Source of the DNA: Myxococcota bacterium
Lineage (GTDB): Bacteria; Myxococcota_A; Polyangia; Polyangiales; Houyiibacteriaceae
NCBI GenBank assembly: GCA_028284955.1
Contig: JANQQS010000009.1
Coordinates: forward strand, 1-64,000
Direction of reading: 5' to 3'
Length of the DNA: 64,000 nt
Below the pieces are notes generated by a model, which worked only from the letters and a program-made list of their open reading frames with translations, had not been told where the DNA came from and did not search any database. Positions 22,369 to 56,188 of the stretch are shown here, one piece after another (the first letter of the stretch is position 1; every line of letters starts with the position of its first letter). Made by a program: the position numbers and the translations under genes.

Positions 22369-23337
22369 ATGGGGAGCCTCGCGAAACGCACGAGCCGCGG
22401 CAGACCGAAGTGCGCATTGCCGTTTATTCTTAACACCGCTGCGATGGTCGCCGTTTGGGTGCCGAGCTTAGCCGCTACGATGGTATCCGCGCAGGACGAT
22501 TCGTCAGGAGACACAGAGGAAACCAAGGCTGAACACGAAACCGAGGTGGAACAAGACGCTCAGGCCGCCGCTCGCGGTCGCGCCGTGATGCAGATGGATT
22601 CGTGGCAAGACGAAGCCGCGCGCTCCCACTTCCGGGTCGGCTCGACGCTCTATCAAGAAGGTCGCTTTCTTGATGCGGCGAGCGAATTTGAGAAAGCCCA
22701 CGAAATGTCCGGTCGCGCGGAGCTCTTGTACAATGCGTATCTTGCCTATCGGGATGCGGGCCGACTCGACAAGGCAGTAGAAATGCTCGGAGGCTATCTC
22801 GAACGCGCCGAGCAGCCTCGAGACGAAGCGCGGCTTCGGCGGCGACTCGCGGCGATGCGCCAAACACTCGAAGAAGAACAACAGGCGCAAGCGCAAGACG
22901 AAGCAGAACGCGAACGTCTGGCTGAGGAGGCTGCCGAGGCGCAAGCGCGCGCCGATCAAGAAGCCAAGCGGGCCCAGGCGGCGGAATCCAAAACGCGAAT
23001 CGCGCCCGCCGCGTGGGCCGTAAGCGCAACCGGCGCGGCGCTCTTGGTTGGGGCGGGAGTCGCCGCCTTGATCGCCCGAAAAGGAATCGACACGCTCGAT
23101 GAAAACTGCCCTGGCAATCGCTGCGATCCCGCGTTCGACCTGGAAGGGGAACGAGATTCCACGAGGCGTTCGGTGATCGCGACCGACGCGCTGTTGTTTT
23201 CTGGAGCCGCAACGCTTGTAACCGGCGTGGTACTGCTTTTTACATTGCGCAAACCGGTCGTCGAGCGGTCCGGGACGACCGCCAGCGCGGCATGCATGGC
23301 GCGAGGATGCCGCGCCGGATTGCGGATGAGGTTTTAG
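22369..23337 (+). CDS. Exported TPR protein with a C-terminal membrane segment
   Basis: A 322-aa protein with a signal peptide (ending near ATMVSAQDD), then TPR-like helices (ARSHFRVGSTLYQEGRFLDA, AELLYNAYLAYRDAGRLDKA). A charged coiled coil follows at about residues 160-205 (EEEQQAQAQDEAERERLAEE), then two hydrophobic segments (AVSATGAALLVGAGVAALIA and DALLFSGAATLVTGVVLLFT). It resembles the many myxobacterial TPR/coiled-coil envelope proteins of unknown role. It is divergent from the sigma-54 activator and is followed after 2 bp by a lipoprotein, so the two are co-transcribed. Confidence 0.85.
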   Translation: MGSLAKRTSRGRPKCALPFILNTAAMVAVWVPSLAATMVSAQDDSSGDTEETKAEHETEVEQDAQAAARGRAVMQMDSWQDEAARSHFRVGSTLYQEGRFLDAASEFEKAHEMSGRAELLYNAYLAYRDAGRLDKAVEMLGGYLERAEQPRDEARLRRRLAAMRQTLEEEQQAQAQDEAERERLAEEAAEAQARADQEAKRAQAAESKTRIAPAAWAVSATGAALLVGAGVAALIARKGIDTLDENCPGNRCDPAFDLEGERDSTRRSVIATDALLFSGAATLVTGVVLLFTLRKPVVERSGTTASAACMARGCRAGLRMRF

Positions 23338-23339
23338 CC

Positions 23340-24143
23340 ATGAGCTTTACTCGTATCGCGACTGCATGCAGCGCGCTGATGCTCGGCCAAGGCTGCTTCG
23401 TCATCGCCGATTTGAACGCCTACGAAGTCGACGAAGGATGCGACTTCGAAATGGAGCTCCAGGAGTTCCAGCCCCATGTGGAAGAGCGCATGGCGTTTCG
23501 CATCGTTGAGCCGGGGGAAGAAGGCCAGCCCTCGAGTCTTCGTGCGCTCGCCGTGTTCGAAACGCTCGGCGCCCCCAATCTTGGTTTTGTTTTGCCAAAC
23601 GCCGTGCCCCCAGGACGTCACGACGTCGATTTCTTCGCCGACCGCGAAAACAACGGCTACGACGACCCGCCCACCGACCACACCTGGACCATCGAAGACG
23701 TCTGCGCGGACCCGCCCAATGTGTTTCCTCATCTCTTCGACTTCTCGGTGCTCGAAGATCCCACCCGCCTCGACCGCGATCTTCGCATCGCATTCACGGG
23801 CATGGGCGATGGCATGGGGCGTGCGATGGAAGTCCGGGTCGGCCTAAGCGCCGAAGGCCCTGGCGGTATTGAGGTCGAGCGGACGGTAGGTCTGTACCGA
23901 ATCAGCGCCATCCGGAGAAGCGAGTTTGAAGTTCGTCTGACGGGCATCCTCGACCGCGACTTCCTCTACGTGGTGTCGATCTGGGTCGACCTCAACCAGA
24001 ACGGCACCTACGACAACCCGCCCACCGACGTCTCGTGGCGATTTCCGGTCGCAGGAATCAACGCCGAACAGGTTCAGTTCAATCCGGACAACCGCAACGA
24101 TGATGTGACGCGGCTGTCCGGCAACCTAGTCACATTTCGCTAG
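23340..24143 (+). CDS. Predicted lipoprotein, 267 aa, with two related beta modules
   Basis: The ATG at 23340 gives a short signal peptide with Cys in LMLGQGCFVIADL. The mature protein contains two similar beta-sandwich modules; the phrase NxxYDxPPTDxxW appears twice (NNGYDDPPTDHTW and NGTYDNPPTDVSW), pointing to an internal duplication. The family is not recognised. The stop codon TAG at 24141 is also the first three bases of a palindromic repeat (TAGAGCAGTGG), so the present C-terminus may have been set by repeat insertion. Confidence 0.8.
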   Translation: MSFTRIATACSALMLGQGCFVIADLNAYEVDEGCDFEMELQEFQPHVEERMAFRIVEPGEEGQPSSLRALAVFETLGAPNLGFVLPNAVPPGRHDVDFFADRENNGYDDPPTDHTWTIEDVCADPPNVFPHLFDFSVLEDPTRLDRDLRIAFTGMGDGMGRAMEVRVGLSAEGPGGIEVERTVGLYRISAIRRSEFEVRLTGILDRDFLYVVSIWVDLNQNGTYDNPPTDVSWRFPVAGINAEQVQFNPDNRNDDVTRLSGNLVTFR

Positions 24144-24266
24144 AGCAGTGGCCTTTTGGCCTGAGCGCGGCTTACCTCCCCTGCTCGCCCGGACGAAGCA
24201 CTAATGTGCGTCATCCGGGCTGCGCTGCCGGGGCGCTCGCGCTCAGACCAAAATTCCACTGCTCTA
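24141..24266. repeat. 126-bp palindromic repeat element, copy A
   Basis: The ends are TAGAGCAGTGG (24141) and CCACTGCTCTA (ending 24266). Inside, CCTGAGCGCG and CGCGCTCAGAC continue the inverted repeat, giving a long imperfect hairpin. Its first three bases are the stop codon of the lipoprotein gene. The sequence is homologous in reverse orientation to 42911-43037. No open frame or transposase is present, so it behaves like a non-autonomous (MITE- or REP-like) element. Confidence 0.85.
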
Positions 24267-24467
24267 TGGGATGCTCCTTGACCTGCAATCGACCAATCTG
24301 GTCACTGCTCTGGGCTAGAGAGCTGATGTTTGGTCTGAGCGCGAGCGTCCCGGCAACCACGCCACGTGCATCCTGGCGGGGGAGCTTGGGTGAATCGTTC
24401 GGGATCGTATCCCGAACGAGAGGGTCTGGGTGCCAGACCCTTAAATAACACAGCGGCCACTGCTCTA
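24267..24467. repeat. Second, composite copy of the palindromic repeat family
   Basis: This fills the rest of the space between two convergent genes. It contains a partial TTTGGTCTGAGCGCGAGCG segment (about 24330), the shared head CACGTGCATCCTGGCGGGGG (about 24364), a TTCGGGATCGTATCCCGAA hairpin, a GGGTCTGG/CCAGACCC hairpin, and the terminal motif CCACTGCTCTA ending at 24467. The last three bases are, on the minus strand, the TAG stop of the YqgE gene. Nothing else is visible in this interval. Confidence 0.75.
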
Positions 24468-25085
24468 GGCGTCGATGCAGCGGAGCTCATCTAGCAAACT
24501 AGGCTCCACGCCCAGCGTGTGCAGCGCATCAGACCATCGCCGGGCAGGGGGGACGTCGAACAGGATGCGTGCGTCGGCGTCGATGCGAAGCCAGTTGCCG
24601 CGTTCCAGCTCCTCTTCCAGTGCGAAAGGCGGCCATTCGACATATCCGCGCAGATGCAGGAATGACGTGGAGGCGTGACCGTTGCGAATGCGTGCAAAAA
24701 GCTCGGGACATGCGGTGACCGCAATGTCCGAGCTCAGCGCGTGGCTATCCCCAGGAATCACGTTGCCCCGGCGAGTGTCGAATACGACCCAGCAGCTTTC
24801 TGGATTCGCGGGTCCTCCCTCAAACGGGCGTACATCAACCCAGCCGGTGTTAAACTCCGGGCATTCGGCCGAGCGAGCTCGATTGACAATGAAGCCGAGT
24901 GAGCCTTCGTCCTCGTCGACGGCCAAGAGCACGAGCGATTGTCGCAGAGACAGCGGCGCTCGATGGGTCGCGACCAAGAGCGAAGGAGTTGGTGTTTGCG
25001 AAACGTCAGCCGCGTGATCGGGACGAAATCCGGATCGTGTTTCGGTTGCGGTCAACAAAGCGCTCACCTCTTCATAGTCCCGCAA
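24465..25085 (-). CDS. YqgE/AlgH family protein (DUF179)
   Basis: A 206-aa protein. The family core starts near residue 34: SLLVATHRAPLSLRQSLVLL, then GSLGFIVNRA, FEGGPANPESCWVVF, LHLRGYVEWPP and LEEELERGNWLRIDAD. These match the YqgE fold; AlgH/YqgE proteins are small cytoplasmic proteins of debated function, linked genetically to regulation in pseudomonads. The stop codon TAG lies inside a repeat terminal motif. It is separated by 68 bp from the HD-GYP gene upstream on the same strand and may be co-transcribed. Confidence 0.85.
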   Translation of the reverse strand: MRDYEEVSALLTATETRSGFRPDHAADVSQTPTPSLLVATHRAPLSLRQSLVLLAVDEDEGSLGFIVNRARSAECPEFNTGWVDVRPFEGGPANPESCWVVFDTRRGNVIPGDSHALSSDIAVTACPELFARIRNGHASTSFLHLRGYVEWPPFALEEELERGNWLRIDADARILFDVPPARRWSDALHTLGVEPSLLDELRCIDA

Positions 25086-29527: not shown

Positions 29528-30285
29528 GCGCCTGGGAGGTGATCGAGAAGCTCAAAGCCTACGTGTGTCCCCGATAGTGCGAGGCGCGCTTCGCCGGGGA
29601 TATCGACGACCAGTACCGATCGCTCGCCGGCCCCGAGGAGAACAACGTACTCCGCTTCGGTGGTGTCTTCTCTCGCGAACCACGAGCCTTGAAAGGGAAG
29701 ATCGTCTCCGTATGCTCGACAGAGAGCCGAGCCTCGTGCGCGAGCGTGAAAGCGGAACCCGTCGAGCACCATTTCGTCCGGCACGCGGCCGTCGCGGATG
29801 GCGTCGGTAGTTTGAAACAACACAAGGCCGCGTGCATCGTCGTCCCATTCGCCCACCCAGTCTGCGCGAAGGGTTCCCGGGCTTCGAAACAACTTCAACG
29901 TTCGATCCCCGGCGTCGAGGTCAAGACAGCCGGCGAGCCATAGCTCGGCGTCTGCGTAGAGGAGAACGTCGCCGACTTCTGCTCGTCCCCTTCCAGACGG
30001 CTCCCCAGCGAATTCTTCCCTCGCCAGATTCCGGCTTTTTGGTTTGTTGGCGCCGCGACGCGCGGTCTCGTGATGATGTCCGGACTCATTGTGCCCGGAC
30101 TTATTGTGCCCGGACTTATTGTGCCCGGACTTATTGTGCCCGGATTTCTGGTTTTGTTCAGACTCGTTCTCAGACTCCGCTTCAGCCGCTTGGTTCATTA
30201 GCTCCTCGTGGCGAATTCGGAGCGCACGAAGCGCGACTGCCGACGCGGCCACGAGCCCCATTCCCACCAATAACTCAACGACCAT
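29518..30285 (-). CDS. Membrane-anchored protein with KSGHN pentapeptide repeats
   Basis: A 255-aa protein. An N-terminal hydrophobic segment (VVELLVGMGLVAASAVALRA) anchors it. An acidic stretch and four to five copies of K/E-SGHN, then HHHE, follow at residues 45-75, a possible metal-binding tether. The C-terminal domain (about 105-255, starting EVGDVLLYADAELWLAGCLD) is beta-rich and loosely resembles DUF4178 modules; that is a weak impression. The repeats are encoded by 15-bp DNA units. Divergent from the DUF2079 gene with a 29-bp gap. Confidence 0.8.
   Translation of the reverse strand: MVVELLVGMGLVAASAVALRALRIRHEELMNQAAEAESENESEQNQKSGHNKSGHNKSGHNKSGHNESGHHHETARRGANKPKSRNLAREEFAGEPSGRGRAEVGDVLLYADAELWLAGCLDLDAGDRTLKLFRSPGTLRADWVGEWDDDARGLVLFQTTDAIRDGRVPDEMVLDGFRFHARARGSALCRAYGDDLPFQGSWFAREDTTEAEYVVLLGAGERSVLVVDIPGEARLALSGTHVGFELLDHLPGASH
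30088..30147 (-). repeat. Four 15-bp tandem repeats encoding KSGHN
   Basis: Units of ATTGTGCCCGGACTT at 30088, 30103 and 30118 are identical and the one at 30133 differs by one base; a partial unit lies upstream from about 30076. The near-identity shows recent expansion. Confidence 0.95.
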
Positions 30286-30356: not shown

Positions 30357-32258
30357 GAGGCGGCGTTTGAAGTGAAGGCGTTTGAAGTGAAGGCGTTTGA
30401 AGTGAAGGCGTTTGAAACGAAACAGCGGCGATGGATCAACGTTTGCGTGGTAGCCACCATCGCCGTCGTCGCCCTGTGTTTCGCTTGGGCGGCGTGGGCG
30501 CGATTTTCGACGTTTCACAATCGCACATTTGACCTCGCGTTTTATGGACGCCTCGCGTGGGGTATCATGCATGCGGACGGTTGGGAGCCGATCGTCGGCG
30601 CGAACGTGCTTGGGCTCCATCTTTCGCCCGTACTTGTTCCCATTGCCGTGGCGGGATGGCTCGCGGGGTATGTCCCCGTTTTGCTGGTGACACAGGCGCT
30701 TTGTCTGGCGGCGACTGCCTGGCCCCTCGGGCGCATGGGGGCGCGCCGTTTTGGCGCGGCGGGGGCAGTATTCGGAGCGGTTGCATTTTGGCTGTACCCA
30801 AACGTTTTTCACGTGGCGTCGTACGAATTTCATCCCGGGACGATCGCCGTGTTGCCGCTCGCCTGGGCGCTCGATGGCGCCGACCGAGGAGATGCGAAAA
30901 CGCTTTTTTGGTCGTCGCTCGGAGTGCTCGCCTGCCGCGAAGACCTTGCGTTGATGACTGCGTTGCTCGGTTTGCTCGCTCGCTTCGATTCGCGAACACG
31001 GCGTGCTGGCGGCGTGATCGCGCTGATCTCATTGGCCCATTTGGCGTTGTTTGCGGCGGTTCTCCATCCTATTTTTGCTCCCCCGCGCGGCTCGATGCAG
31101 CTCCATTTTGGCAAATGGGGAAACTCATCGAGTGAAGTCATCCTGCACTGGCTTACGCATCCATGGTCGGTGATCGAGCACCTCAGCGAAACAAAACGCT
31201 TGCTTTACTTGCCCAAAGTACTTGGACCGCTTGCGCTGCTGAGTCTAGGAAGTCCGCGTTGGTTGGTCGTCGCGTTGCCGGTGTTCGGCGTGTCGCTGAT
31301 GAGCGATTTTCCAACCACCACCGATCTTGATTGCCACTATCTCACCCCTGCATTGCCGCCCATCTTGTTGAGCGCGATCGACGGCACGGCGCGGCTTTCG
31401 AAGTGGATCGACCAGTGGCTTGCTCCCTTGAAGACAGCGGGACGCTGGGTCGGGATCGGTCTGCCGAGCGTATCGGTCGTGGCGGCGCATGTTGTGGCTG
31501 GCGGCACGCCGATCGCTCGCGACTACGACCGCGCTCAGTTTGTACCCGACGACCGCAGCGTTCACGCCCGTGCGGCGGTGGATGCGGTGTCTCCGGGGGC
31601 GAGCGTGCAGGCCCCCGACTGTTTGCTTCCTCATTTGGTCGAGCGCCAATTTCTCCATCGAGCCCCTCCCCCGGAGCAGCTTGCAGATTTTGTGGTGCTC
31701 GATACGTCGCATCGGCTCCGCTTCCCCAACCAAGAAAGCGTGCTCCGTACGTTCGAAGAACCCAATTTGCGCAACTGGCTCGCTCGCGACGACCATCGAG
31801 TTGTTCTCTATAGCGACAACTTCGTCGTCCTCGAGCGTGGACGAGAGCCACGCACCGGGACGGGCGCGAAATATATTCTCTCCAAACCGCACCACGGGGC
31901 GCAGCGAGATGGCCCTCCCGCGCGGCTTACCGAATGTCTTTCATTGCGCTCGGGTCGTAGAAAAGGAGCCCAAGTTACGCTTGAGCTCGAGGCGCACGGG
32001 CCGTGTGCGCCCGACTTGGCGATTCGTATCGGTCAAGAACAACCCACGAATGAGTATCGACCGGGCGCGGTGGTGCTTCCATTTGGCGGCGAACTTTCTC
32101 CCAAGCATCTGCGTTCAGGGGATGTGGTTCAGTCGTCGCACAAGATCGATCGGCTCAGCCGCGCACGCCGAATTTGGGTAGGCGTGCTCCGTGAAAGCGG
32201 AGCAAGGCCGGACCCTAACGATCCGGTTGGTGTCCCACTCGACCTAGCGGTTGACTAG
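30315..32258 (+). CDS. DUF2079-family multi-pass membrane protein
   Basis: A 647-aa integral membrane protein. After a short repeated cytoplasmic N-terminus it shows the DUF2079 hallmarks: FSTFHNRTFDLAFYGRLAWG, VASYEFHPGTIAVLPLAWAL and LACREDLALM, with eight or more hydrophobic helices to about residue 400. A soluble C-terminal region of about 240 residues follows. DUF2079 proteins resemble GT-C-type glycosyltransferases, but the substrate is unknown. Start codons GTG 30315 and GTG 30336 lie in the two copies of a 21-bp tandem duplication, so either could be used. Residues 18-37 are four AFEVK-like pentapeptides. Confidence 0.88.
   Translation: MTRKVWCVTRKVRSEAAFEVKAFEVKAFEVKAFETKQRRWINVCVVATIAVVALCFAWAAWARFSTFHNRTFDLAFYGRLAWGIMHADGWEPIVGANVLGLHLSPVLVPIAVAGWLAGYVPVLLVTQALCLAATAWPLGRMGARRFGAAGAVFGAVAFWLYPNVFHVASYEFHPGTIAVLPLAWALDGADRGDAKTLFWSSLGVLACREDLALMTALLGLLARFDSRTRRAGGVIALISLAHLALFAAVLHPIFAPPRGSMQLHFGKWGNSSSEVILHWLTHPWSVIEHLSETKRLLYLPKVLGPLALLSLGSPRWLVVALPVFGVSLMSDFPTTTDLDCHYLTPALPPILLSAIDGTARLSKWIDQWLAPLKTAGRWVGIGLPSVSVVAAHVVAGGTPIARDYDRAQFVPDDRSVHARAAVDAVSPGASVQAPDCLLPHLVERQFLHRAPPPEQLADFVVLDTSHRLRFPNQESVLRTFEEPNLRNWLARDDHRVVLYSDNFVVLERGREPRTGTGAKYILSKPHHGAQRDGPPARLTECLSLRSGRRKGAQVTLELEAHGPCAPDLAIRIGQEQPTNEYRPGAVVLPFGGELSPKHLRSGDVVQSSHKIDRLSRARRIWVGVLRESGARPDPNDPVGVPLDLAVD
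30363..30422 (+). repeat. Four 15-bp tandem repeats encoding AFEVK
   Basis: GCGTTTGAAGTGAAG is repeated exactly at 30363, 30378 and 30393, with a diverged copy at 30408 (GCGTTTGAAACGAAA). It adds a charged pentapeptide tail before the first transmembrane helix. Confidence 0.95.
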
Positions 32259-39287: not shown

Positions 39288-40754
39288 GCTGTTCGAACAT
39301 ACGCGCATGTTTGTGCGACCCTCGTCGCCTTCGGCTGCGCTGCCGAAGCCCATCCCGGCAGCGCGGGAGAAAACAAAGCCATCATCGGCGAACACGAGAT
39401 TCGTGAGTACTACCAGGCGAGCCCTTTCGTGCGGCAACTGATGCGCGAGTCAACGGGTGTTTGGATAGGGAACAGGAATGTGCCGGCCGTCGTTCAGGGC
39501 GACTACCCGCACACCCAGCAAACCAAAACGAAAAGGGAGATTGAGAGTGACCGAGGCCTTTGCCAGGTTGCCGGTCCTGGGGCGATTTCCTCGCAAGACT
39601 CTACGGTGACGCGGGAGCTTCGAGAGTACGGTATATGCAAGCGCGCGGCCTTTGCCGAACAACCGGCGCCGGGATTTTGCTCTGGCTACTTCGTCTATGT
39701 GTCGCCGACCGTCGCTTTGGTTCAGACGTCGGGTCACTGCATCAAGACCCAAGCAGCGTGTGAGAACGCGACGTTTGTTACTGGGTACTATCACGATCGC
39801 CTGTTCATCGCCCGACGCGGCGCCGGCGCTGCGCCGAAGCTTCGAGTGGAACGAGATCTCTTTCCCTGCAAGCGCATTCTGGCGCACAGCTTCTCAAGAG
39901 ATGATGACTTGGGCACCGTGCGGGACTACGCGATCGTCGAAGTAACTCTTCCGCCAGACCCACGCGAGCTGCGCGCGTTTGCCCTGGCTCCGTTCGGGGC
40001 CACGATTCACGAGCGACGTACATTCAAAGAGCAAGAGACTCTGTACAGCGTGGGACACCCGTGGGGAACTCCAGCGAAGGGTTTCGTGGGAGACCGCGTA
40101 TTTCATCAACTGAGTAAGCCCGATATTTTCGAGCATTCGGTCGATACCTTTCGGGGCCAGTCAGGGTCCGTTGTCGCCGCGCAAGGAACTCGCGGCGAAG
40201 CCGTTGCGTGGGGAACTCACTCCTACGCTCCCGCGTTCGCCTTCGTGCTTTCCGAGCAAGAGAGCAGAGCGGGGGGCAGCACCGAAACAGTGGCTTGCCT
40301 GGACTACAGAACGTTTGCGGCAGATGCCAAAGAGACGTACGGCGGCGCGCAGTACGCCTACACCGGACCGGTCGACCTTTGCGCTCGAGGCCTCGGTCCG
40401 GCTGATTTTTGCGACCCTATCGTGCGCGAAGCCCGCGCTCTCTGCCCGGAAGTCGTTCAGAGACTTCGTAGCCGGTCGCCAGGGTTTGGGCCGCGAGACC
40501 TACCTGGATGCCGCGATTTGCGTCGTGCCTTTGGCGACGCGGCGTTGGGCGCGGAATACACAGAAGGCCCGGACTGCCGTCGCGGTCTCAACTACTGCCA
40601 AAACGGCAAGCTGATGGACTGCTCGGGAAGGACCAGCGGCCCGGGGGAACCGAACGAGTGCGAATCGCTCGGTGGAACCTGCACCTACTTGGATACCGAC
40701 TACGGATGCCGAATGAAGCCCGTGGTGCAACCGGCGGTGGCCGCGTGCAGCTAG
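39279..40754 (+). CDS. Secreted trypsin-like serine protease, first of a tandem pair
   Basis: A 491-aa protein. GTG 39279 gives a signal peptide (AHVCATLVAFGCAAE) with a possible lipobox. The chymotrypsin-type triad is visible: His in LVQTSGHCIKT, Asp in VRDYAIVEV and Ser in FRGQSGSVVAAQG. The C-terminal 130 residues are Cys-rich with a motif shared with its neighbour (RRGLNYCQNGKLMDCSGR) that is not part of the protease fold. The next gene is a paralogue with the same layout, so this is a tandem duplication. The hairpin around the start may control translation. Confidence 0.9.
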   Translation: MTPAVRTYAHVCATLVAFGCAAEAHPGSAGENKAIIGEHEIREYYQASPFVRQLMRESTGVWIGNRNVPAVVQGDYPHTQQTKTKREIESDRGLCQVAGPGAISSQDSTVTRELREYGICKRAAFAEQPAPGFCSGYFVYVSPTVALVQTSGHCIKTQAACENATFVTGYYHDRLFIARRGAGAAPKLRVERDLFPCKRILAHSFSRDDDLGTVRDYAIVEVTLPPDPRELRAFALAPFGATIHERRTFKEQETLYSVGHPWGTPAKGFVGDRVFHQLSKPDIFEHSVDTFRGQSGSVVAAQGTRGEAVAWGTHSYAPAFAFVLSEQESRAGGSTETVACLDYRTFAADAKETYGGAQYAYTGPVDLCARGLGPADFCDPIVREARALCPEVVQRLRSRSPGFGPRDLPGCRDLRRAFGDAALGAEYTEGPDCRRGLNYCQNGKLMDCSGRTSGPGEPNECESLGGTCTYLDTDYGCRMKPVVQPAVAACS

Positions 40755-40828: not shown

Positions 40829-42277
40829 ATGGTGATTGTTCGAATCTGTCTGTTCGTTTGCGTCGCCCTCGGCTGCGCTGCCGAAACCAATCCCAGCAGC
40901 GCAGGAGCAAACAAAGCCATCATCGGCAACTTCTCATCGTACGAGTACTACCAGTCCAGTGTGTTTGCTCAGAAGCTCATGCGTGAGTCGACCGGCGCAT
41001 GGATTGCCGTGGATGATCTGGGCGCTGTTTTGCGAGGAGAATATCGATCTCAACGATCGAAGGCGAAGAAGCTCATCCAGAGCGACCGCGGTCTCTGCAG
41101 CTATGTTGGTCCGGCGTCGGTATCGTCTCAAGAAGCGGCAACGCTTAGCGAGCTTCGAGAGCACAGCCTTTGCGCGCGCGTCGCGTTCGCGAATCAGCCG
41201 GCGCCAGGATACTGCTCGGGCTTCTTCATCTACGTGTCGACGAATGTCGCTTTGGTGCAGACCGCGGGCCATTGCATGAAAACTCAGTATCAATGTGACA
41301 ACGCGGCGTTTGTCGCCAGCTACCATCATGCGCGTCCAACCGTTGCCCAGGACAACACGATCGTTCCGCTTTCGCCAGAAGTCCGAAGCGACCGCGATGT
41401 TTATCGATGTAAACGCATTCTTGCCCACGCTTCAGCAAGAAATAAACCGGGAGATGCCGGTCGCGACTACGCGATCGTGGAAGTAAAGCCTCCCCCAGAC
41501 GCGACCGTGCGACGCGCCGTTGCGCTCGCTCCGCTCGGAGCTCAGATACATCAGCGGATCGCTTTTCACGGCCGGGCACGTCTCCACAATGTAGGTCATC
41601 CGCATGGTGTTCCCGCCAAGAGTTCGGTGGGAAATGACGCGTTTCATCTTGGGGATCGATTCAACTTTTTTAGACACTCAGTCGATACTTCTCCCGGACA
41701 ATCTGGCTCGATCATTGCGGTAGAAGGTCCCGGTGGCGACGCGGTTGCCTGGGGAGTCCACAGCGGCGCTCCTCGGCCCTTTGTGTTTGCTCACCAAGTC
41801 GTTGGCGTTGGCGAACGCACAAAAACGGTTGCTTGTCTCGACTACCGAAAGTTCGCCGAAGGCAACGAAGAGAGCTACGGCTGGGCGCAATATGCATATA
41901 CCGGCGCAGTGGACATGTGCGCCCGCGGTCTCGGCCCGAGCGAATTCTGCGATCCCGTGATCACCGACGCCCGCAAACGTTGCCAAGAGCACCCGGAACT
42001 ACGTAATCGTCAGGGATGCCGTGATCTATTTGCTGCCTTCGGCGATGACCTGAGCCGCGTGGAATACGAAGAAGGGCCGAGCTGTCGGCGCGGCCTCAAC
42101 TACTGTCAGGCCGGTAAGCTCATGGATTGCGCCGGCCAAGTCGACGGCCCCGGTAATCCTGTCGAGTGTGAGTCAGTTCGCAAGCGCTGCACTTTTTTGG
42201 GGCCTGACTACGGCTGTCGCGACCCGTCTGTTGGCCAGTGCACGCAGTTTTCAGACCAACCGGTTACTGGAACGTAG
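40829..42277 (+). CDS. Secreted trypsin-like serine protease, second of a tandem pair
   Basis: A 482-aa paralogue of the preceding gene. ATG 40829 starts a signal peptide (MVIVRICLFVCVALGCAAE). Triad: His in LVQTAGHCMKT, Asp in GRDYAIVEV, Ser in PGQSGSIIAVEG. It shares the Cys-rich tail RRGLNYCQAGKLMDCAGQ. Both proteases keep a conserved N-terminal motif (NKAIIG, then QLMREST or KLMREST), probably part of the propeptide or start of the mature enzyme. The upstream gap is 74 bp, so the two may be co-transcribed. Confidence 0.9.
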   Translation: MVIVRICLFVCVALGCAAETNPSSAGANKAIIGNFSSYEYYQSSVFAQKLMRESTGAWIAVDDLGAVLRGEYRSQRSKAKKLIQSDRGLCSYVGPASVSSQEAATLSELREHSLCARVAFANQPAPGYCSGFFIYVSTNVALVQTAGHCMKTQYQCDNAAFVASYHHARPTVAQDNTIVPLSPEVRSDRDVYRCKRILAHASARNKPGDAGRDYAIVEVKPPPDATVRRAVALAPLGAQIHQRIAFHGRARLHNVGHPHGVPAKSSVGNDAFHLGDRFNFFRHSVDTSPGQSGSIIAVEGPGGDAVAWGVHSGAPRPFVFAHQVVGVGERTKTVACLDYRKFAEGNEESYGWAQYAYTGAVDMCARGLGPSEFCDPVITDARKRCQEHPELRNRQGCRDLFAAFGDDLSRVEYEEGPSCRRGLNYCQAGKLMDCAGQVDGPGNPVECESVRKRCTFLGPDYGCRDPSVGQCTQFSDQPVTGT

Positions 42278-42460: not shown

Positions 42461-42515
42461 CAGACTGTGTACGTGATGAAGTTGCGTGCTTCCTGGCGAG
42501 TGAGCTGTGTTTTCT

Positions 42516-42865
42516 GGAGGGTTTGAAGCAAACCCTCCCCCCCGCGGGTACGACCCGCGCGGGTCCCCCACCCGACTCCGACCGCTTGCGCGGCCGCCCC
42601 ATCGCTCCGCGATGGGGCCCCAGCAGCACACCACTTACGCGACCAGGTCACGTGCCTCGTGGCGGGGGAGCTTGGGTGGCTATGTTGTTCGGAGGGTTTG
42701 AAGCAAACCCTCCCCCCCGCGGGTACGACCCGCGCGGGTCCCCCACCCGACTCCGGCCGCTTGCGTGGCCGCCCCATCGCTCCGCGACGGGGCCCCAGCA
42801 GCACACTACTTACGCGACCATGTCCACGTGCATCCTGGCGGGGGAGCTTGGGTGAATCGGCGGGG
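42516..42865. repeat. Two tandem 175-bp hairpin-rich units
   Basis: Unit 1 begins at 42516 and unit 2 at 42691; they are nearly identical. Each contains three consecutive stems: GAGGGTTTG-aag-CAAACCCTC, CGCGGGT-acg-ACCCGCG and CCCCATCGC-tcc-GCGATGGGG (one substitution in unit 2). Each ends in the shared head (CACGTGC...TGGCGGGGGAGCTTGG). Unit 2 runs directly into the hairpin module that precedes copy B. It is non-coding by appearance. Confidence 0.88.
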
Positions 42866-42906
42866 TCGTACCCCGACGAAAGGGTCTGGGTGCCAGACCC
42901 TAAATC
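42866..42906. repeat. GTACCCC/GGGTCTGG hairpin module
   Basis: Continues from the shared head with GGGGTCGTACCCC (about 42863) and GGGTCTGGGTGCCAGACCC (about 42882-42900), the same module as at 1-71 and about 24390-24440. Confidence 0.8.
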
Positions 42907-42910
42907 AATA

Positions 42911-43037
42911 TAGAGCAGTGGAATTTTGGTCTGAGCGCGAGCGCCCCGGCAGCGCAGGCCCGATGACGCACGAATAGTGCTTCGTCGGGCCGAGCAGGGG
43001 AGGAAAGCCGCGCTCAGACCAAAAGGCCACTGCTCTA
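42911..43037. repeat. 127-bp palindromic repeat element, copy B
   Basis: TAGAGCAGTGG at 42911 and CCACTGCTCTA ending at 43037, with GGTCTGAGCGCG and CGCGCTCAGACC as inner stem. Its last three bases are, on the minus strand, the stop codon of dnaE2. It is homologous to copy A in opposite orientation. Confidence 0.87.
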
Positions 43038-46000
43038 GTGGAAATCGCGGGAGCGGGTGGTCACCTCCTCCCCAACCCACGGAGGCGCCCACAAGCGTTT
43101 GGCGACGAGATGGGTAACGCCCTCGGCAACTTGGAGAGTGCCGGCGACGCCAAGAATCGCCTGGGTCTTGGCGACGGTGGCAAATCGCTCAAAGACATCG
43201 CGCCAGACCACGAGATTGACAAAGCCGGTTTCGTCTTCGAGGGTGAAGAAAGTGACGCCGCTGGCGGTGCCCGGGCGCTGCCGGCAGATCACCAAGCCAA
43301 CATATTCGACTTTGGTGGCGTCGCGCATGGCGGAAAGAGCGCGCGCATGAGGAAGGCGTCGCGCTTCAAGCAAAGGGCGAAAGCGCTCCATCAAATGGCC
43401 TCGGGGGCTGTGATGGCTCGCGCGGTAATCCCAGAGAACTTCTTCAGGCGAAGAAAGCGAGCGAAATTGGGCGGTGGAAGGGCTCTGCCACGGCATGGTG
43501 TCAGAGACGTTTTGAGCCAGCGCACGCACCTTCCAAATAGCATCTCGACGCGGCGTACCGAACCCATCTAGAGCGCCCGCTTCGCCGAGCGCAACCAGGC
43601 TGCGCTTCGAGAGGCGCGTGCGGGTGACAAAATCAGCGAGGTCGGCATAAGGAGCTGGCGATTGCGTCATCGCGTCCCGATCGCGTGTTTTCAAACCCTT
43701 CACATAACGAAGCCCCATGCGTATGGCGGGCTTCGGCTGAGACGGTTCGAGCGTGCAGTCCCATGCGCTTTGCTGCACGTCGATGGGACGCACGTCGATG
43801 CGATGACGTTTCGCATCTTCAACGAGCGAGGCTGGAGAATAAAACCCCATCGGCTGCGAATTGAGCAGCGCGCATGTGAACGCCGCCGGGTGATGGCAGC
43901 GCAGCCACGAGGTGACATAGGCCAGTAGAGCAAACGAGGCAGCGTGGCTTTCAGGAAACCCGTATTCGCCAAATCCTTGAATCTGCGAATACACCCGCTC
44001 GGCGAAGTCTTGCGGAATGCCTTTTTTGATCATGCGCGAAATCAATCGTTCGCGATGAGCTTCGATGCGCCCCGAACGACGCCACGCGGCCATATCGCGC
44101 CGCAGCTGGTCGGCTTCTTCGGGGCTATAGCCCGCCGCCACGATGGCCAGCTTCATGACTTGCTCTTGAAAAATGGGCACGCCCAAAGTTTTATGGAGCA
44201 CCCGTTTGAGATCGGGATGCGGATAGTTCACCTCTTCTTCGCCATTTCGCCGACGCAAATAAGGATGCACCATGTCGCCTTGAATGGGGCCAGGGCGCAC
44301 AATCGCCACTTCGATGACCAAATCGTAAAACGTGCGCGGTTTGAGCCGCGGCAGCATGGCCATCTGGGCGCGGCTTTCGATCTGAAAAACCCCCACCGTA
44401 TCGCCTCGCGACACCATGTCGTAGGTGGCGGTATCTTCTGCGGGAACGGTTGCGATCGTGAGGTCGTGTCCGCGGGCGCGGAGCAAATCGAAGCAGCGGT
44501 GAATGCTGGTCAGCGCGCCCAGGCCGAGTAAATCGACTTTGAACAGCGCAAGGTTTTCTACATCGTACTTATCCCATTGAATCACCGTGCGACCTTCCAT
44601 GGTCGCGGGTTCGATCGGCACGATATGAGTCACCGGAAGATGCCCCAGCAAAAAGCCGCCAGGATGAATCGAAAGGTGGCGCGGAAAATCGCTGATTTCA
44701 TGCACCAGCTGGCAGAGGTGGTGGGTGACGGGGGCTTCGGCATCAAGGCCCGCCTCCGAAAGCAATTTCACGCTCAGGCCGTCGCTGTAATGACGCAGCA
44801 GTCGCGTAACGGAATCCAGATCGGTGAGCGGGAGCCCCAGCGCCTTTCCTACATCGCGCACCGCGGATCGTGTTCGGTAGCGAATCACGTTCGCCACCAT
44901 CGCGGCGTGGCGTCGTCCATACCGCGCGTACACATATTGAATCACTTCTTCGCGCCGCTCATGCTCGATATCGAGGTCAATATCCGGGGGCTCGGCTCGG
45001 TTGCGGCTTAGAAAGCGCTCAAAGAGCAAATCCATGCGCACGGGGTCGATCGCGGTAATGCCCAAGCAAAAACACACCGCGCTGTTCGCGGCGCTGCCTC
45101 GACCTTGGCAGAGAATATTGTGCTCGCGGCAGTACACGACGATGTCGTGCATGGTGAGAAAGTAGCCGTCGTATTCAAGCTCCTGGATGAGCTCGAGCTC
45201 GCGTTCAAGTTGCGCGCGCACGTCATCCGGAATCGCGTCGTAGCGCTTTTGCGCGCCCTGCCAGGTCAACGCGCGAAGCCAGCTGGTTTCGGTTTCGCCG
45301 TTTGGCAAATCTTCGGCAGGGTAGCGATATCGAATCTGACTCAAATCAAACGTGCAGCGCTTGGCGATCTCTTGCGTACGCGCCCATAGCTCAGGGGCAT
45401 CAGCAAACAGCTGCTCCATCTCATGGGAAGACTTCACATCGTGCTCCGCGTTCGCTCGAATTCGGCGGCCTGCTTCGGCAAGGCTGCATTTGTGACGAAT
45501 GCAGGTCAGCACGTCTTGCAGCGGTTGCCGTGCTTGGTCGTGATAAAGCACTTCGACGGCTCCCACACAGGGTACGCCTCGCGCTCGAGCCGCCCGGCGA
45601 AGCAAAATCTCCGCCTGCTGTTCTTCGGCGCTGAGATGCCTCGCGCATAGAGCAAACAGATCTTCACCGAATGAATTAAGATCATCGAGGAGCTCTGGAT
45701 GAGGGCAAAGGGCGATCAAATCCCCTGCCGCATCGGCCAGCTCGTGAAGCGTGACCCAGGCCTGCCCTTTGGTGCCGCGCGTATGCGCCTGGGTGATCAG
45801 ACGGCACAGCCGCGCATATCCAAACGCGGTTTTGGCGAGCACCACAACCCGCTTTGCATCGTCTTGCGCATCGTTCTTTTGTACGCGCTCGTCCACATGA
45901 TCATGTACGTACAGTTCAGCGCCAGGAATCACCTGCATGCCGAATTCGCGGGCTCGAACATGCGCGCGAGCAAGGCCATACACGCCATGGCGGTCGGTTA

Positions 46001-46169
46001 GCGCCAGCGCGTGCATCCCGAGCGCGTGTACCTTATCCACGATCTCTTCAGGGTGGCTCGCGCCTTCCAAAAAGCTGTAGTTCGATTTCACCCATAGATG
46101 GATCCCTTGAACGTCTTCACGATCGGCATCTTGACGATGAACCTTTTGACGATAGACATCCTGCGACAT
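43035..46169 (-). CDS. dnaE2: Error-prone DNA polymerase III alpha subunit DnaE2
   Basis: A 1044-aa C-family polymerase. A PHP domain is at the N-terminus ([29 protein letters not shown]). The palm has catalytic Asp residues in [20 protein letters not shown], with the nearby [15 protein letters not shown]. The sequence [20 protein letters not shown] is typical of DnaE2, and the OB fold follows at the C-terminus. It performs translesion synthesis with ImuB. ATG 46169 is preferred over the longer frame from 46385 because conserved PHP sequence follows within 25 residues; it lies 10 bp after imuB. The first residues show a pentad pattern ([15 protein letters not shown]). The stop TAG lies in a palindromic repeat. 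Confidence 0.95.
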
Positions 46170-46179
46170 GTTCGACCCG

Positions 46180-47703
46180 CTAATCGATTGCGCCTTGCTG
46201 ATACCAACGCTTGCGGGCGCGATCGAAATAGAGCCAAAGCACCGCGCCGAGTGCGGTTTCGGCGTAGTAGTAGTCGCGCAACACGGTGCGTGATCGCGTG
46301 GTGGACGCGTTGCACCACCATCCACCGCTGATGCGATAGGGGCCAAAGAGGCGGCGCACGTTTTCTTGAGCCAGTGTGCTGCCAAGGGAGCGCGGGGGAA
46401 TCATCATGCGTCGCACCAATGCAAACGATTGCGCAGACGAGGTAGCGCTGTGATTGGAGGTCATGCTGCGATTGGAGGTAGCGCTGTGATGGGCACCAGC
46501 CCGTCGCTGAGGAACCTGCCGTAACGGCTCCCACTGAAAACGAGCCTCGGGCAGATGACCCGGTCGCAGGCGAGCTCGTGTGACTGATTGAGGACCAAAC
46601 GCAGCCCGAAGGCGAGCGATCGCTCGATCGGCGGGTGCGATATCGCGAGCAGGCCGATCGAGAAGAGCTTGTTGCTCAGAAGTTTGGGCCACGTGGTCGG
46701 CGCTGAGCTTCACCTCTTCGACCGGCGCATCGAGGCGAACCTCTTGAAGGCGCAACCGCACCAGCTCGAGCAAAGTCATGACTTCGCGCGTAGGCTCGGC
46801 AGGTTCGATGCGCTCTTCATGGGTGCCTCCCCGCTCCAGCATCAAACGAACGAAAAGCGTTTTGAGCTTTTGATGGCGCGCCTCGAGCGCTGCGATGAGT
46901 TCAGCGAGACCGCCCTTAATGCCAAAAAGCAATCGATAAGGGTCGGCGTCTGGCGGGTCGACTTCAAAAGCCACCTCGAGCGTCTCTTCGAGCACTCGGG
47001 GTTGCATGGGTAGTTGGGGGCTTTCCGCAAAAAGCCCGTGCATATGGCTTGCTTCGCGGCCAAACCGCGCCGCCAACTCCCCGGCTGGAATCGAGAGAAA
47101 AGCCCCCAGCGTATCCAGCCCGAGCAGCGACAGCCCATCGATCAGCATCGGCGGCAACCCCAGCTTATAGAGCGGCACCACATCCGAGCGATCGCGTTCG
47201 GTCTCTCGGTCTGGAATCACCCAAAACCCAGCCCGCGCGCGCGCAATCGCGAGCGCGCGATATCGCGAAAAGCCCACCACTGTGGACGCATACAAACCGC
47301 GGCCTCGGAGATATCCGTGCACCGCGCGCGTCCAATTGCGCAGGCCCCCGTAAAGCTTGTCGAGCCCTTGCGGGTCGATAAAAAAGGTCTCTGGAAAATA
47401 GCGATCGCGCTCCACCCGCGGAGAAAACGTATGCAGCGCGCGACCGAGCTCCACCGCAAACGCTTCTACTTCATGCTCGGGCACGACGGCGGTATGCACA
47501 TGCGGCACGAGCTGCCGCGCCGCGCTTTGGGTCATGCCAACTCGCAGCTTGAGCGCAGCGGCGCGACGGTTGACCTGAACTAAGCGAGCTTCGGGGCGTT
47601 CAGAAGCGACGACCGCGACGGGCGCTTCTCGCCAGGCGGGCCGCGCTTTGAGCAAGATCTGAAGCGGCAGCAGAGGAAAGGAAATGCATCCGATCCGCTT
47701 CAC
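46180..47703 (-). CDS. imuB: ImuB, catalytically inactive Y-family polymerase homologue
   Basis: A 507-aa Y-family-like protein that connects DnaE2 to the replication clamp. The N-terminal palm is recognisable ([40 protein letters not shown]), but the acidic catalytic residues of active polymerases are missing: there is no Asp in the first strand, and the usual SxDE reads PETF. That matches ImuB. A Ser/Thr/Asn repeat ([17 protein letters not shown]) lies in the C-terminal region. It overlaps imuA by four bases and is followed by dnaE2 after 10 bp. Confidence 0.93.
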
Positions 47704-53503: not shown

Positions 53504-53704
53504 TTCTATCGTTTATGCCAAAATAGCGCTATACATGCTAAAAATACGTGTTCTGTGCGTTGTTCGCGACCTCGAAGGGTTGCTGCGACGCTCTCGGGAC
53601 CACGTCATCTGGAACGAGCCGTTGCAAGTGCATCGTTTCAGTGGCACGAAACCTTGCGCGTTTGATGATACGCGTTGATACGCGGGCGGGCGCGAGAGGT
53701 AGAG

Positions 53705-54910
53705 ATGACTAGATGGATCGCTTGGACAGTGTGCGTTGTCGCGGCAGTAGCTTGGGCCTGCGGCGGCGACAAGAAGAACACGATGTGCACCAACACCTGC
53801 ACCACGCCAAGCAATCGCATCTGCGAAGACGGCGGGAATATGACCACCCACGGGGGCATGGCAAACTCGATCTCCGCGGCGTGTCAGCTCGGCACCGATT
53901 GCAACGATTGCGGAACCCGCACGATACCTACCGCCGCCACCGGGCTGTGCACGGAAACGTGCCTCACTCCTCGCAATGGCAGCTGTGACGACGGCGGCAC
54001 GATCGCTGCGAACGGCGGCACGTTGAACGCGACGGGGGCTACCTGCCAACTCGGAACCGATTGCACCGACTGCGGCATGCGCAATAGCCCCACCGCGGCA
54101 ACGGGCATGTGCTTGAACACCTGCACGACGCGAAGCAATGGTTTCTGCGACGACGGGGGAACGATTGCCGCGAACGGCGGCACGTTGGACGCGACGGGTG
54201 CCACCTGCCAACTCGGCACGGATTGCGCGGACTGCGGCATGCGCAACAGCCCCACCACAGCAACGGGCATGTGCTTGAACACCTGTACGACGCGAAGCAA
54301 TGGTTTCTGCGATGACGGGGGAACGATTGCCGCGAACGGCGGCACGTTGGACGCGACGGGTGCCACCTGCCAACTCGGCACGGATTGCGCGGACTGCGGC
54401 ATGCGCACGACGGGCACGACGGGCGCGACAGGCGGCACCACCGACCCCGCCAGCAAATGCGAAAATACTTGCAACACGAGCGGCAACACCGTCTGCGAAG
54501 ACGGCGGCACAAACTCCATCCGCAGCACCTGTGAGATCGGCACCGACTGCACCGACTGCGGTACGCGCACGACCACCGACGTCGCGACACGCTTTTGCAC
54601 CGACGCGTGCACCTCGTCCGCCAATGGCGTCTGCGAAGACGGTGGAAACCCGGCCACCCACGGCGGCAATCCTTCGACCGGGGACAGCTGCAAACTCGGA
54701 AGTGATTGCTCCGACTGCAGCTCCCGCATGGTCACCGGCGGCTCGCAAACCCAGAACCCCGATCAAAACCAGCTGTGCTCAGAAGAGTGTCGCTGGTCGA
54801 ACGACAAAGCGTGTGACGACGGCGGCCCCGGCGCCACCATGTCGATCTGCGAACTAGGCACAGACTGCCTCGATTGCGGACCAAGGCCACGCCCCACCAC
54901 GACCAACTAG
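53705..54910 (+). CDS. Secreted Cys-rich repeat protein, seven repeats
   Basis: A 401-aa protein. A signal peptide (WIAWTVCVVAAVAWACGG) ends in a possible lipobox. The rest is seven tandem modules of pattern C-x3-C-x4-8-N-x3-C-[DE]-DGG ... C-xLG[TS]DCxDC. Repeats 3 and 4 are nearly identical at DNA level (54-residue period), the others diverged. Such DGG...LGTDCxDC modules occur in secreted and surface proteins of several deltaproteobacteria. No enzyme motif. The long opposite-strand frame over this gene is a by-product of its repeats. Confidence 0.9.
   Translation: MTRWIAWTVCVVAAVAWACGGDKKNTMCTNTCTTPSNRICEDGGNMTTHGGMANSISAACQLGTDCNDCGTRTIPTAATGLCTETCLTPRNGSCDDGGTIAANGGTLNATGATCQLGTDCTDCGMRNSPTAATGMCLNTCTTRSNGFCDDGGTIAANGGTLDATGATCQLGTDCADCGMRNSPTTATGMCLNTCTTRSNGFCDDGGTIAANGGTLDATGATCQLGTDCADCGMRTTGTTGATGGTTDPASKCENTCNTSGNTVCEDGGTNSIRSTCEIGTDCTDCGTRTTTDVATRFCTDACTSSANGVCEDGGNPATHGGNPSTGDSCKLGSDCSDCSSRMVTGGSQTQNPDQNQLCSEECRWSNDKACDDGGPGATMSICELGTDCLDCGPRPRPTTTN
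54075..54398 (+). repeat. Two near-identical 162-bp units in the Cys-rich gene
   Basis: Units 54075-54236 and 54237-54398 differ at only a few bases and encode consecutive 54-residue modules. This points to recent unequal crossing-over or gene conversion, while flanking modules have diverged. Confidence 0.92.
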
Positions 54911-55208: not shown

Positions 55209-55401
55209 TAGAGCAGTGGAATTTTGGTCTGAGCGCGAGCGGCCGCTTTTCCCGGGGGCGATGTCGCCCCCGCCCCATCGAATACATCCGATGGGGCCCC
55301 CACCCCCTACTGGACAGCGAACGACTGAGGAAGGCTTCGAGCCTTTCGCGGGGAGAGAGCGAGGAGGAAAGCCGCGCTCAGGCCAAAAGGCCAATGCTCT
55401 A
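55209..55401. repeat. 193-bp palindromic repeat element, copy C
   Basis: TAGAGCAGTGG at 55209 and CCAATGCTCTA (one mismatch) ending at 55401, with inner arms GGTCTGAGCGCG and CGCGCTCAGGCC. The longer interior holds three more hairpins: GGGGGCGA-tg-TCGCCCCC, CCCCATCG...CGATGGGG and AAGGCT-tcg-AGCCTT. The right end is 1 bp from the TAA stop of the SDR gene. Confidence 0.87.
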
Positions 55402-55402
55402 C

Positions 55403-56188
55403 TTAGAGTTGGCTCATGCCGCCGTCAGCCACCAACTCCGTGCCGAGCACGTAGGCCGAATCGTCCGACGCCAGGAATAGCGCGGCTTTTGCGATTTCGT
55501 CGGAGGTGCCGAAGCGCTGCATGGGCACCTTGCTGAGAATCTGCTGCGCCGTTTCTTCAAGTGCTTCTTTCGACAGTCCCATCTTGTTGAAGATCGGAGT
55601 TTCGATAGGGCCCGGGCTGATGGCGTTGACGCGAATTTTGCGTTCTGCAAGCTCGGCGGAAGCGACCCGAGCGAGCGAGCGAAGCGCGGCTTTGGTGGGT
55701 GCGTAGACGCTGAGGCCGGCCATGCCCATCACGTTGCTGCATGACGTCGTCAGCACCACCGATGCGCCTTCACGCAAGAGCGGCAAGGCTTTTTGCAGAG
55801 TGAAGAAGGCGCCTTTGAAGTTGACGTTCATCGTTTGGTCAAACGTGGTTTCATCGATCGTATCGATGGGCGCGAACTTGCCGATGCCGGCGTTGATAAA
55901 GAGCACGTCCACGCCGCCGAACTTGGTTTTGATTTGGGCAAAGAGGTTGTCGATGTCGGACAGTTTGCTCGCGTCAGATTTGACGACCAACGCGTCGCTG
56001 CCGAGTTCCGCGCGCGCTTGAGCCAGCGTTTGCTCGTTGCGCCCGGTCACCACCACTTGGGCCCCCTCCGAAAGGAAGCGTTTTGCGGTAGCAAACCCGA
56101 TTCCGGTTGTGCCTCCAGTGATCACGGCTGTTTTCCCGGACAGTTTTCCTTGCGATGATGCATTTTGCGACGTGCTCTGTTCCGACAT
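55403..56188 (-). CDS. Short-chain dehydrogenase/reductase (SDR)
   Basis: A 261-aa NAD(P)-dependent oxidoreductase. The cofactor motif is TGGTTGIG (in VITGGTTGIGFATAKRF), with NAG (FINAGIGKFAP) and catalytic Tyr/Lys in YAPTK; a Ser is in TTSCSN. The PG motif ISPGPIETPIF and C-terminal LGTELVADGGMSQL are typical of classical SDRs. The substrate cannot be read from sequence. Single gene, divergent from the helicase across 130 bp. Confidence 0.95.
   Translation of the reverse strand: MSEQSTSQNASSQGKLSGKTAVITGGTTGIGFATAKRFLSEGAQVVVTGRNEQTLAQARAELGSDALVVKSDASKLSDIDNLFAQIKTKFGGVDVLFINAGIGKFAPIDTIDETTFDQTMNVNFKGAFFTLQKALPLLREGASVVLTTSCSNVMGMAGLSVYAPTKAALRSLARVASAELAERKIRVNAISPGPIETPIFNKMGLSKEALEETAQQILSKVPMQRFGTSDEIAKAALFLASDDSAYVLGTELVADGGMSQL

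Follow-up and report, generated by a model that had tools for sequence, protein, structure and literature searches.

A polar 126-nt hairpin repeat whose outer end abuts stop codons in a Myxococcota genome

ERIC, RUP and Correia are small repeats with TA termini, as described in the part of PMC2229807 on which we draw here. The enterobacterial ERIC/IRU/RU-1 repeats are ~127 bp long, intergenic and highly base-paired, with TA termini and target duplication, and in these respects they are like the element studied here; they belong however to another taxon, and the likeness is one of description. Neither a coincidence with stop codons nor a fixed gene-facing end is reported for them in that part of the source. 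RUP (Streptococcus pneumoniae, related to IS630-Spn1) and Correia/NEMIS, treated in the same part of PMC2229807, are likewise small and non-autonomous, with terminal inverted repeats and TA termini, but RUP has a matching IS630 whereas we found no IS630-type transposase in the study genome. GTAG REPs and BIMEs, which are associated with RAYTs, share with our element a location at gene 3’ ends, an occurrence between convergent as well as unidirectional genes, and an arrangement in mosaic clusters, and neighbouring ORFs often take their TAG stop from a GTAG-REP terminus (PMC3733652). REP units are however 20-40 bp long, with GTAG in >90% of the members of most families, whereas the element here is 126 nt, sits mostly at CTAG and has no linked RAYT. 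Finally, the IS605-derived PATEs of Haloquadratum are also palindrome-bearing, transposase-free and mobile (PMC3119063), but have neither terminal inverted repeats nor target duplication, whereas the ends of our element are complementary.

The supply of TAG stops by GTAG-REPs has thus been reported before, and what is new here is the empty-site evidence together with the strict polarity. We think it likely that the hairpin is a MITE-like non-autonomous element of ~126 nt, of the same type as ERIC, RUP and Correia, which inserts at TA in or next to a stop codon, rebuilds TAG and is moved in trans.

The hairpin in the window and in the genome

The stretch of DNA that we analysed (the window) is the first 64,000 nucleotides of one contig (C29:1-64000) from an assembly of 6.07 Mb in 223 contigs. 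For the terminal motif TAGAGCAGTGG, with up to one mismatch, the window has 8 occurrences where 0.35 are expected, a count never reached in 100 shuffles, and 89 exact copies are present genome-wide. The repeat itself is an imperfect hairpin of 126-127 nt with ~100 genome copies, and its outer end, TAGAGCAGYGGCCTTTTGG, abuts gene stop codons. A covariance model (R1) based on 20 of the copies gives 99 matches in the genome. Like a MITE, it is non-coding and multi-copy (126-283 nt among the copies) and carries terminal inverted repeats, with 11 terminal pairs in addition to the inner arm pairs. Many contigs of the assembly end within the hairpin core (for example C49, C50, C146, C184 and C197), so that there are more copies than our count shows, and the assembly is broken up by the element itself.

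The first copy in the window (24141-24266, + strand, 126 nt; R1 150.7 bits, E 1e-29; RNA MFE -78.9 kcal/mol, z -9.0) has its outer end at a lipoprotein gene and makes the TAG stop (24141-24143, +) of ORF 23292-24143 (+). Its inner end is followed, as in most copies, by a tail module that we call M1 (about 24267-24312, -), and then by a second repeat module (24313-24467, -), a GGGTCTGGCACCC hairpin with the terminal motif TAGAGCAGTGG that is not homologous to the 126-nt hairpin. The end of this second module makes the TAG stop (24465-24467, -) of yqgE (24465-25085, -). An earlier note on this sequence gave 24141-24467 as palindromic repeats whose ends form the stops of the flanking genes; the stop-forming ends are as it said, but the region is not one palindrome, being instead a composite of a hairpin copy, a tail module and a different GGGTCTGG-hairpin module ending at 24467, in which the 11-base terminal motif is the sole part common to the two hairpins. 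The second copy (42911-43037, -, 127 nt; R1 146.8 bits; MFE -83.2, z -11.2) makes the TAG stop of dnaE2 (43035-46385) at 43035-43037 (-), and its inner end is abutted by other repeats (42504-42910), namely a 146-nt repeat present twice and then a GGGTCTGG module. The third copy (55209-55401, -, 193 nt; R1 109.3 bits) has a longer core and ends at 55401, 1 nt from the TAA stop of an SDR gene (55403-55405, -). The same note had given all of these motif ends and stops, and the positions agree with ours. At the very edge of the contig, the terminal part of a B-type GGGTCTGG module (1-94, -) with a TAGAGCAGTGG end is cut by the contig boundary and does not lie at a stop.

The genes flanking these copies are complete by Pfam, with DUF179 matched over 157/157 positions and the SDR domain to residue 259 of 261, and are thus not truncated. 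We could therefore exclude random insertion into gene ends with creation of new TAG stops, since the genes do not read into the element and their domains are complete. Another abundant family of repeats, which has the hairpin GGGTCTGGCACCCAGACCC, is present at 42504-42910, 24313-24467 and 1-94, and some of its copies that lack the TAGAGC end also begin right at a stop (e.g., C159:59978 and C221:10061).

The window copies fold with MFE values between -79 and -83 kcal/mol (z -9 to -11), whereas the 29-nt end by itself is hardly more stable than shuffled sequence (z -1.2), and the unit is thus the 126-nt hairpin and not a stem-loop of 20-40 bp as in GTAG REPs. Across copies, 97.9% of arm cells are paired. 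Two-sided changes were found in 7 of the 26 pairs, a level attained in 0/500 shuffles and absent when the alignment was slid, and the arms covary between subfamilies (e.g., GCG/CGC vs TTG/CAA). The arms are kept distinct by conserved mismatches and by a conserved asymmetry (CC vs AA). In 46/47 copies here and in 26/26 related matches, the better-folding strand is the one opposite the gene. G-U pairs had pointed to selection on the folding of the RNA in gene sense, which is excluded because the opposite strand folds better. A search of Rfam with the hairpin family gave no match.

The two-sided changes occur almost without one-sided intermediates, which may also mean that one arm is copied onto the other at replication. 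The covariation may thus reflect either selection or such arm-to-arm copying. At one site in a sibling-genus genome (L272 in G056, 1974-2099 plus flanks), the inverted repeat runs ~9 nt past the element and takes in the final codons of the left gene. It looks as though an inverted copy of the flank had been made, which favours copying at this site. At another (L271 in G023, 2016-2141), the palindrome spans both convergent TGA stops and the flanking codons.

Placement at stop codons and polarity

Placement was counted in 1.58 Mb of the genome, ~1.2 Mb of it (1.22 Mb) as whole-contig tiles, with genes called by a purpose-written codon-usage caller and ends classed by the sequence that lies inside the shared motif. 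The first three bases of the outer end are a gene stop in 44/103 cases. If the ends lay at random among non-coding and stop TAG sites, exact coincidence would be expected in 10% (p about 1e-17), and among CTAG sites in 12% (p about 2e-14), so the tabulation of distances to the nearest stop, which the earlier note had proposed as a check, is far from random. With a wider interval of -8 to +3 nt, 74 of the 103 outer ends have a stop, compared to 1/65 inner ends; no tail end (M1) lies near one (0/37), and the ends of B modules are at a stop in 6/16 cases on the left and 1/16 on the right. The placement is thus strongly polar, which had not been foreseen. Several of the 29 outer ends without an assigned stop abut another repeat or a long frame that the gene caller missed. 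Of the convergent intergenic regions 43% contain repeats, as do 11% of the tandem and 4% of the divergent ones (convergent vs divergent, p 4e-16).

TAG is the commonest stop in the study genome (~45% in the 1.22 Mb of tiles, at 60% GC). Because two relatives are also rich in TAG stops (29% and 40%), this habit is not produced by the element. The base before the element’s TAG at stops is C in 34/49 cases, compared to 104/309 other TAG stops (p 3e-6), and it is never A (0/49 vs 61/309). Over 100 ends, the count is C 67, G 25, T 6 and A 1, so that a conserved GTAG tag like that of the REPs is not present. The target itself is TA, as in IS630/Tc1/mariner elements. At the far end (M1), TA is found in only about 20/37 copies, several of which are junctions with other repeats.

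It had been suggested that stop codons are preferred because TA is scarce in coding DNA. This does not hold, as 576 CTAG sites outside repeats lie in non-coding DNA and 89 lie at stops, and a preference for CTAG alone can therefore not yield a preference for stops; scarcity of CTAG as the sole cause is excluded by the same counts. Simple mariner/IS630-like targeting fares no better, since a symmetric TA does not predict that one fixed end faces the gene (74/103 vs 1/65 and 0/37). The polarity is thus unexplained by TA scarcity or by CTAG preference.

Filled, empty and decayed sites in relatives

The covariance model found matches, most of them full length, in 20/33 other genomes of the family, whereas the end sequence was absent from 183/183 other genomes of the order and neither end sequence was matched in viral contigs. 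In a sibling genus (G001, G021, G023, G024, G050, G052 and G056) the ends are mostly TAGTGTGCGG...CGCACACTA, and a gene stop lies at -2 to +3 in 15 of the 17 copies read, with the stop of the left gene at +3 in nine of them and, in the other six, at +2, 0, -1 or -2. Where the stop is not TAG, both arms have changed together, to GAG/CTC at one sibling site (L258) and CCG/CGG at another (L271), and a copy in the study genome (C107:15143) has TCGAGC/GCTCGA arms with a TGA gene stop. Copies in a more distant genus (G009) are further from stops, at -6 at best. The genes that bear the element differ between the relatives and the study genome; for example, a 75%-identical orthologue there lacks it.

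The empty-site evidence comes from the sister genus with its homologous element, and not from the window’s own copies. At the first locus, G024 reads ...aagacc TA[G...C]TA agcttg... between two convergent genes, with the ends of the element forming both stops, while 13 siblings have nothing between the same two genes. In the empty sites where both frames could be read, the stops overlap at CTAG or CTAA. The element is also present at this locus in G056, with 15 extra bases on the right. At the second locus, the filled site in G056 (...gatatc TA[G...C]TA ggcggt...) corresponds to an empty site in G024 (...gacatc TA gctggc...), and the proteins end at the same residue in filled and empty forms (NALNVSNLDI*/NALNVTNLDI* and ...LLRRSRRTA*/...LLRRSRRAS*). 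At both loci, a convergent gene pair is split exactly at TA, one TA in the empty site is replaced by TA on both sides of the insert, as in MITEs, and both last residues are kept. Thus the element is mobile between species, has TA on both sides, rebuilds the stop and keeps one end facing the gene. The proposal that it inserts at TA and re-creates TAG is supported by these sibling sites and by the preference for C before TAG (34/49 vs 104/309). At the second locus, four siblings (G012, G019, G023 and G052) hold remnants with both element ends and a lost core, so that precise loss in G024, rather than a site never filled, is possible.

Beside elements in the study genome we also see short TA-spacer-TA sequences with the spacers GC, GTG, GAC, GTC and GAG, in tracts such as CTAGACTAGACTAG. 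We infer that these scars fit decay or excision of elements. The related genomes thus provide a set of filled, empty and decayed sites.

Possible routes of movement

In the mechanism that we propose, a non-autonomous element of ~126 nt, which folds end to end into an imperfect hairpin, inserts at TA, preferably as C-TA-G or C-TA-A, within or beside a stop codon. After insertion TA would stand at both element ends, and the gene would still end in TAG because the element starts with G. Between convergent genes whose stops overlap at CTAG both stops would be rebuilt, as the empty sites at two loci show, and the same end would nearly always face the gene, as is seen in the placement counts. Further elements would then gather at occupied sites, and copies would decay by internal deletion to leave short TA-spacer-TA scars; the sequences of both kinds are at hand, while the order of events is our reconstruction. 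The enzyme would act in trans and might be either a DDE transposase specific for TA or, as with IS200 and REPs, a nuclease that acts on single-stranded hairpins.

If this is correct, an insertion leaves a working TAG and the element can land on genes without harming them. The CTAG palindrome common to convergent stops would be a safe harbour for a small mobile element, as the empty sites show, and this gives a concrete explanation of why palindromic repeats such as REPs often supply TAG stops. The polarity could arise because the folded strand is read and inserted in single-stranded form, or through selection against the other orientation, or by coupling to gene expression. We are doubtful that the transposition machinery itself picks stop-codon TA sites in the sense orientation, and so targets the element to gene ends, for example via a coding strand exposed where translation or transcription stops. 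Were this so, we would be dealing with a transposon that chooses its target by the direction of genes and the ends of reading frames, with harmlessness built in.

The two candidate enzymes concern only the agent of movement, and both are compatible with the proposed mechanism. A TA-specific DDE transposase of the IS630/Tc1/mariner type, moving double-stranded DNA with polarity and stop preference left to selection alone, is a serious candidate, although we would put it somewhat short of probable. TA on both sides at the two empty-site loci, the CTAG preference and the TA-spacer-TA scars (GC, GAC, GTC and GAG) all fit it, and so do the TA termini of RUP and ERIC and the link of RUP to IS630-Spn1 in the part of PMC2229807 cited above. 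However, the polarity (74 vs 1) is not given by a symmetric TA, the strand-asymmetric fold is conserved across genera, and the DDE_3 profile (PF13358) has 0 matches in the assembly, so an IS630-type enzyme is not seen. DDE_Tnp_1 also gave no match there, and a search for a transposase or autonomous element with matching ends found none in this assembly, which is fragmented and could hide an autonomous copy. The insertion sequence with matching ends that the earlier note had proposed to look for was thus not found in it.

The same two loci can be read more tentatively as the work of a tyrosine nuclease (HUH/Y1, RAYT or IS200-like) that moves the element as single-stranded DNA, as in REPs, by reading the folded strand and inserting after (C/G)TA; the right-hand TA would then be the element’s own end and not a duplication. 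This would account for the polar placement, for the better folding of the strand opposite the gene (46/47 here and all 26 related matches) and for the conserved CC vs AA arm asymmetry with its covariation, and it agrees with the TAG stops often supplied to flanking ORFs by GTAG-REPs (PMC3733652). On the other hand, the canonical GTAG tag is the less common form (C at 67 and G at 25 of 100 ends), and free insertion after CTA on either strand would also yield contacts of inner ends with stops. The study genome has a single Y1_Tnp (RAYT-like) gene (L129, G000:C158:16674-16928, in an open frame of 304 aa), and no hairpin copy lies within about 1.5 kb of it, whereas a RAYT would be flanked by its repeat. 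A cognate RAYT is thus unsupported, the sole Y1_Tnp gene being unlinked to the repeat.

A different reading, which we consider unlikely, is that the hairpin is a selected 3’-end module, a bidirectional terminator or an mRNA stabiliser, held at the stop because of its function and not as a result of insertion. The compensatory arm changes and the location at gene 3’ ends and between convergent pairs are consistent with it, and ERIC alters mRNA stability in an orientation-dependent manner (in the part of PMC2229807 drawn on here). However, a given gene pair may carry the element in one sibling species and not in another, the element-bearing genes of relatives lack a copy in the study genome, and Rfam holds no match. 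A terminator would also need neither the preference for C before TAG nor an exact overlap with the stop. Our search for intrinsic terminators (a GC-rich stem followed by a T run) found none at the hairpin and one weak site at 24307-24323. The bidirectional terminator that had been offered as an alternative thus gains no positive support, with no T-tract at the hairpin and positions that are not common to relatives.

Chance or assembly artefact is negligibly probable and we regard it as refuted: many contigs do end inside the hairpin and some copies may be chimeric joins, but the stop coincidence has p about 1e-14 or less and is replicated in separately assembled genomes. Integron attC sites end in the consensus RYYYAAC/GTTRRRY. 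We considered them for their length, polarity and 3’ location and rejected them, because this consensus is absent from the ends here and the neighbouring genes (yqgE and dnaE2) are chromosomal and dispersed.

The window contains further repeats of other kinds. Six related units, mostly 162 nt apart, lie at 53783-54645 inside the ORF region 53513-54766 and look as if they code for cysteine-rich repeats, and two short arrays of a 15-nt repeat (five codons) are found at 30077-30151 and 30362-30421. The segments 39323-40015 and 40861-41556 form a diverged tandem duplication, with parts 73-91% identical and 1.54 kb apart.
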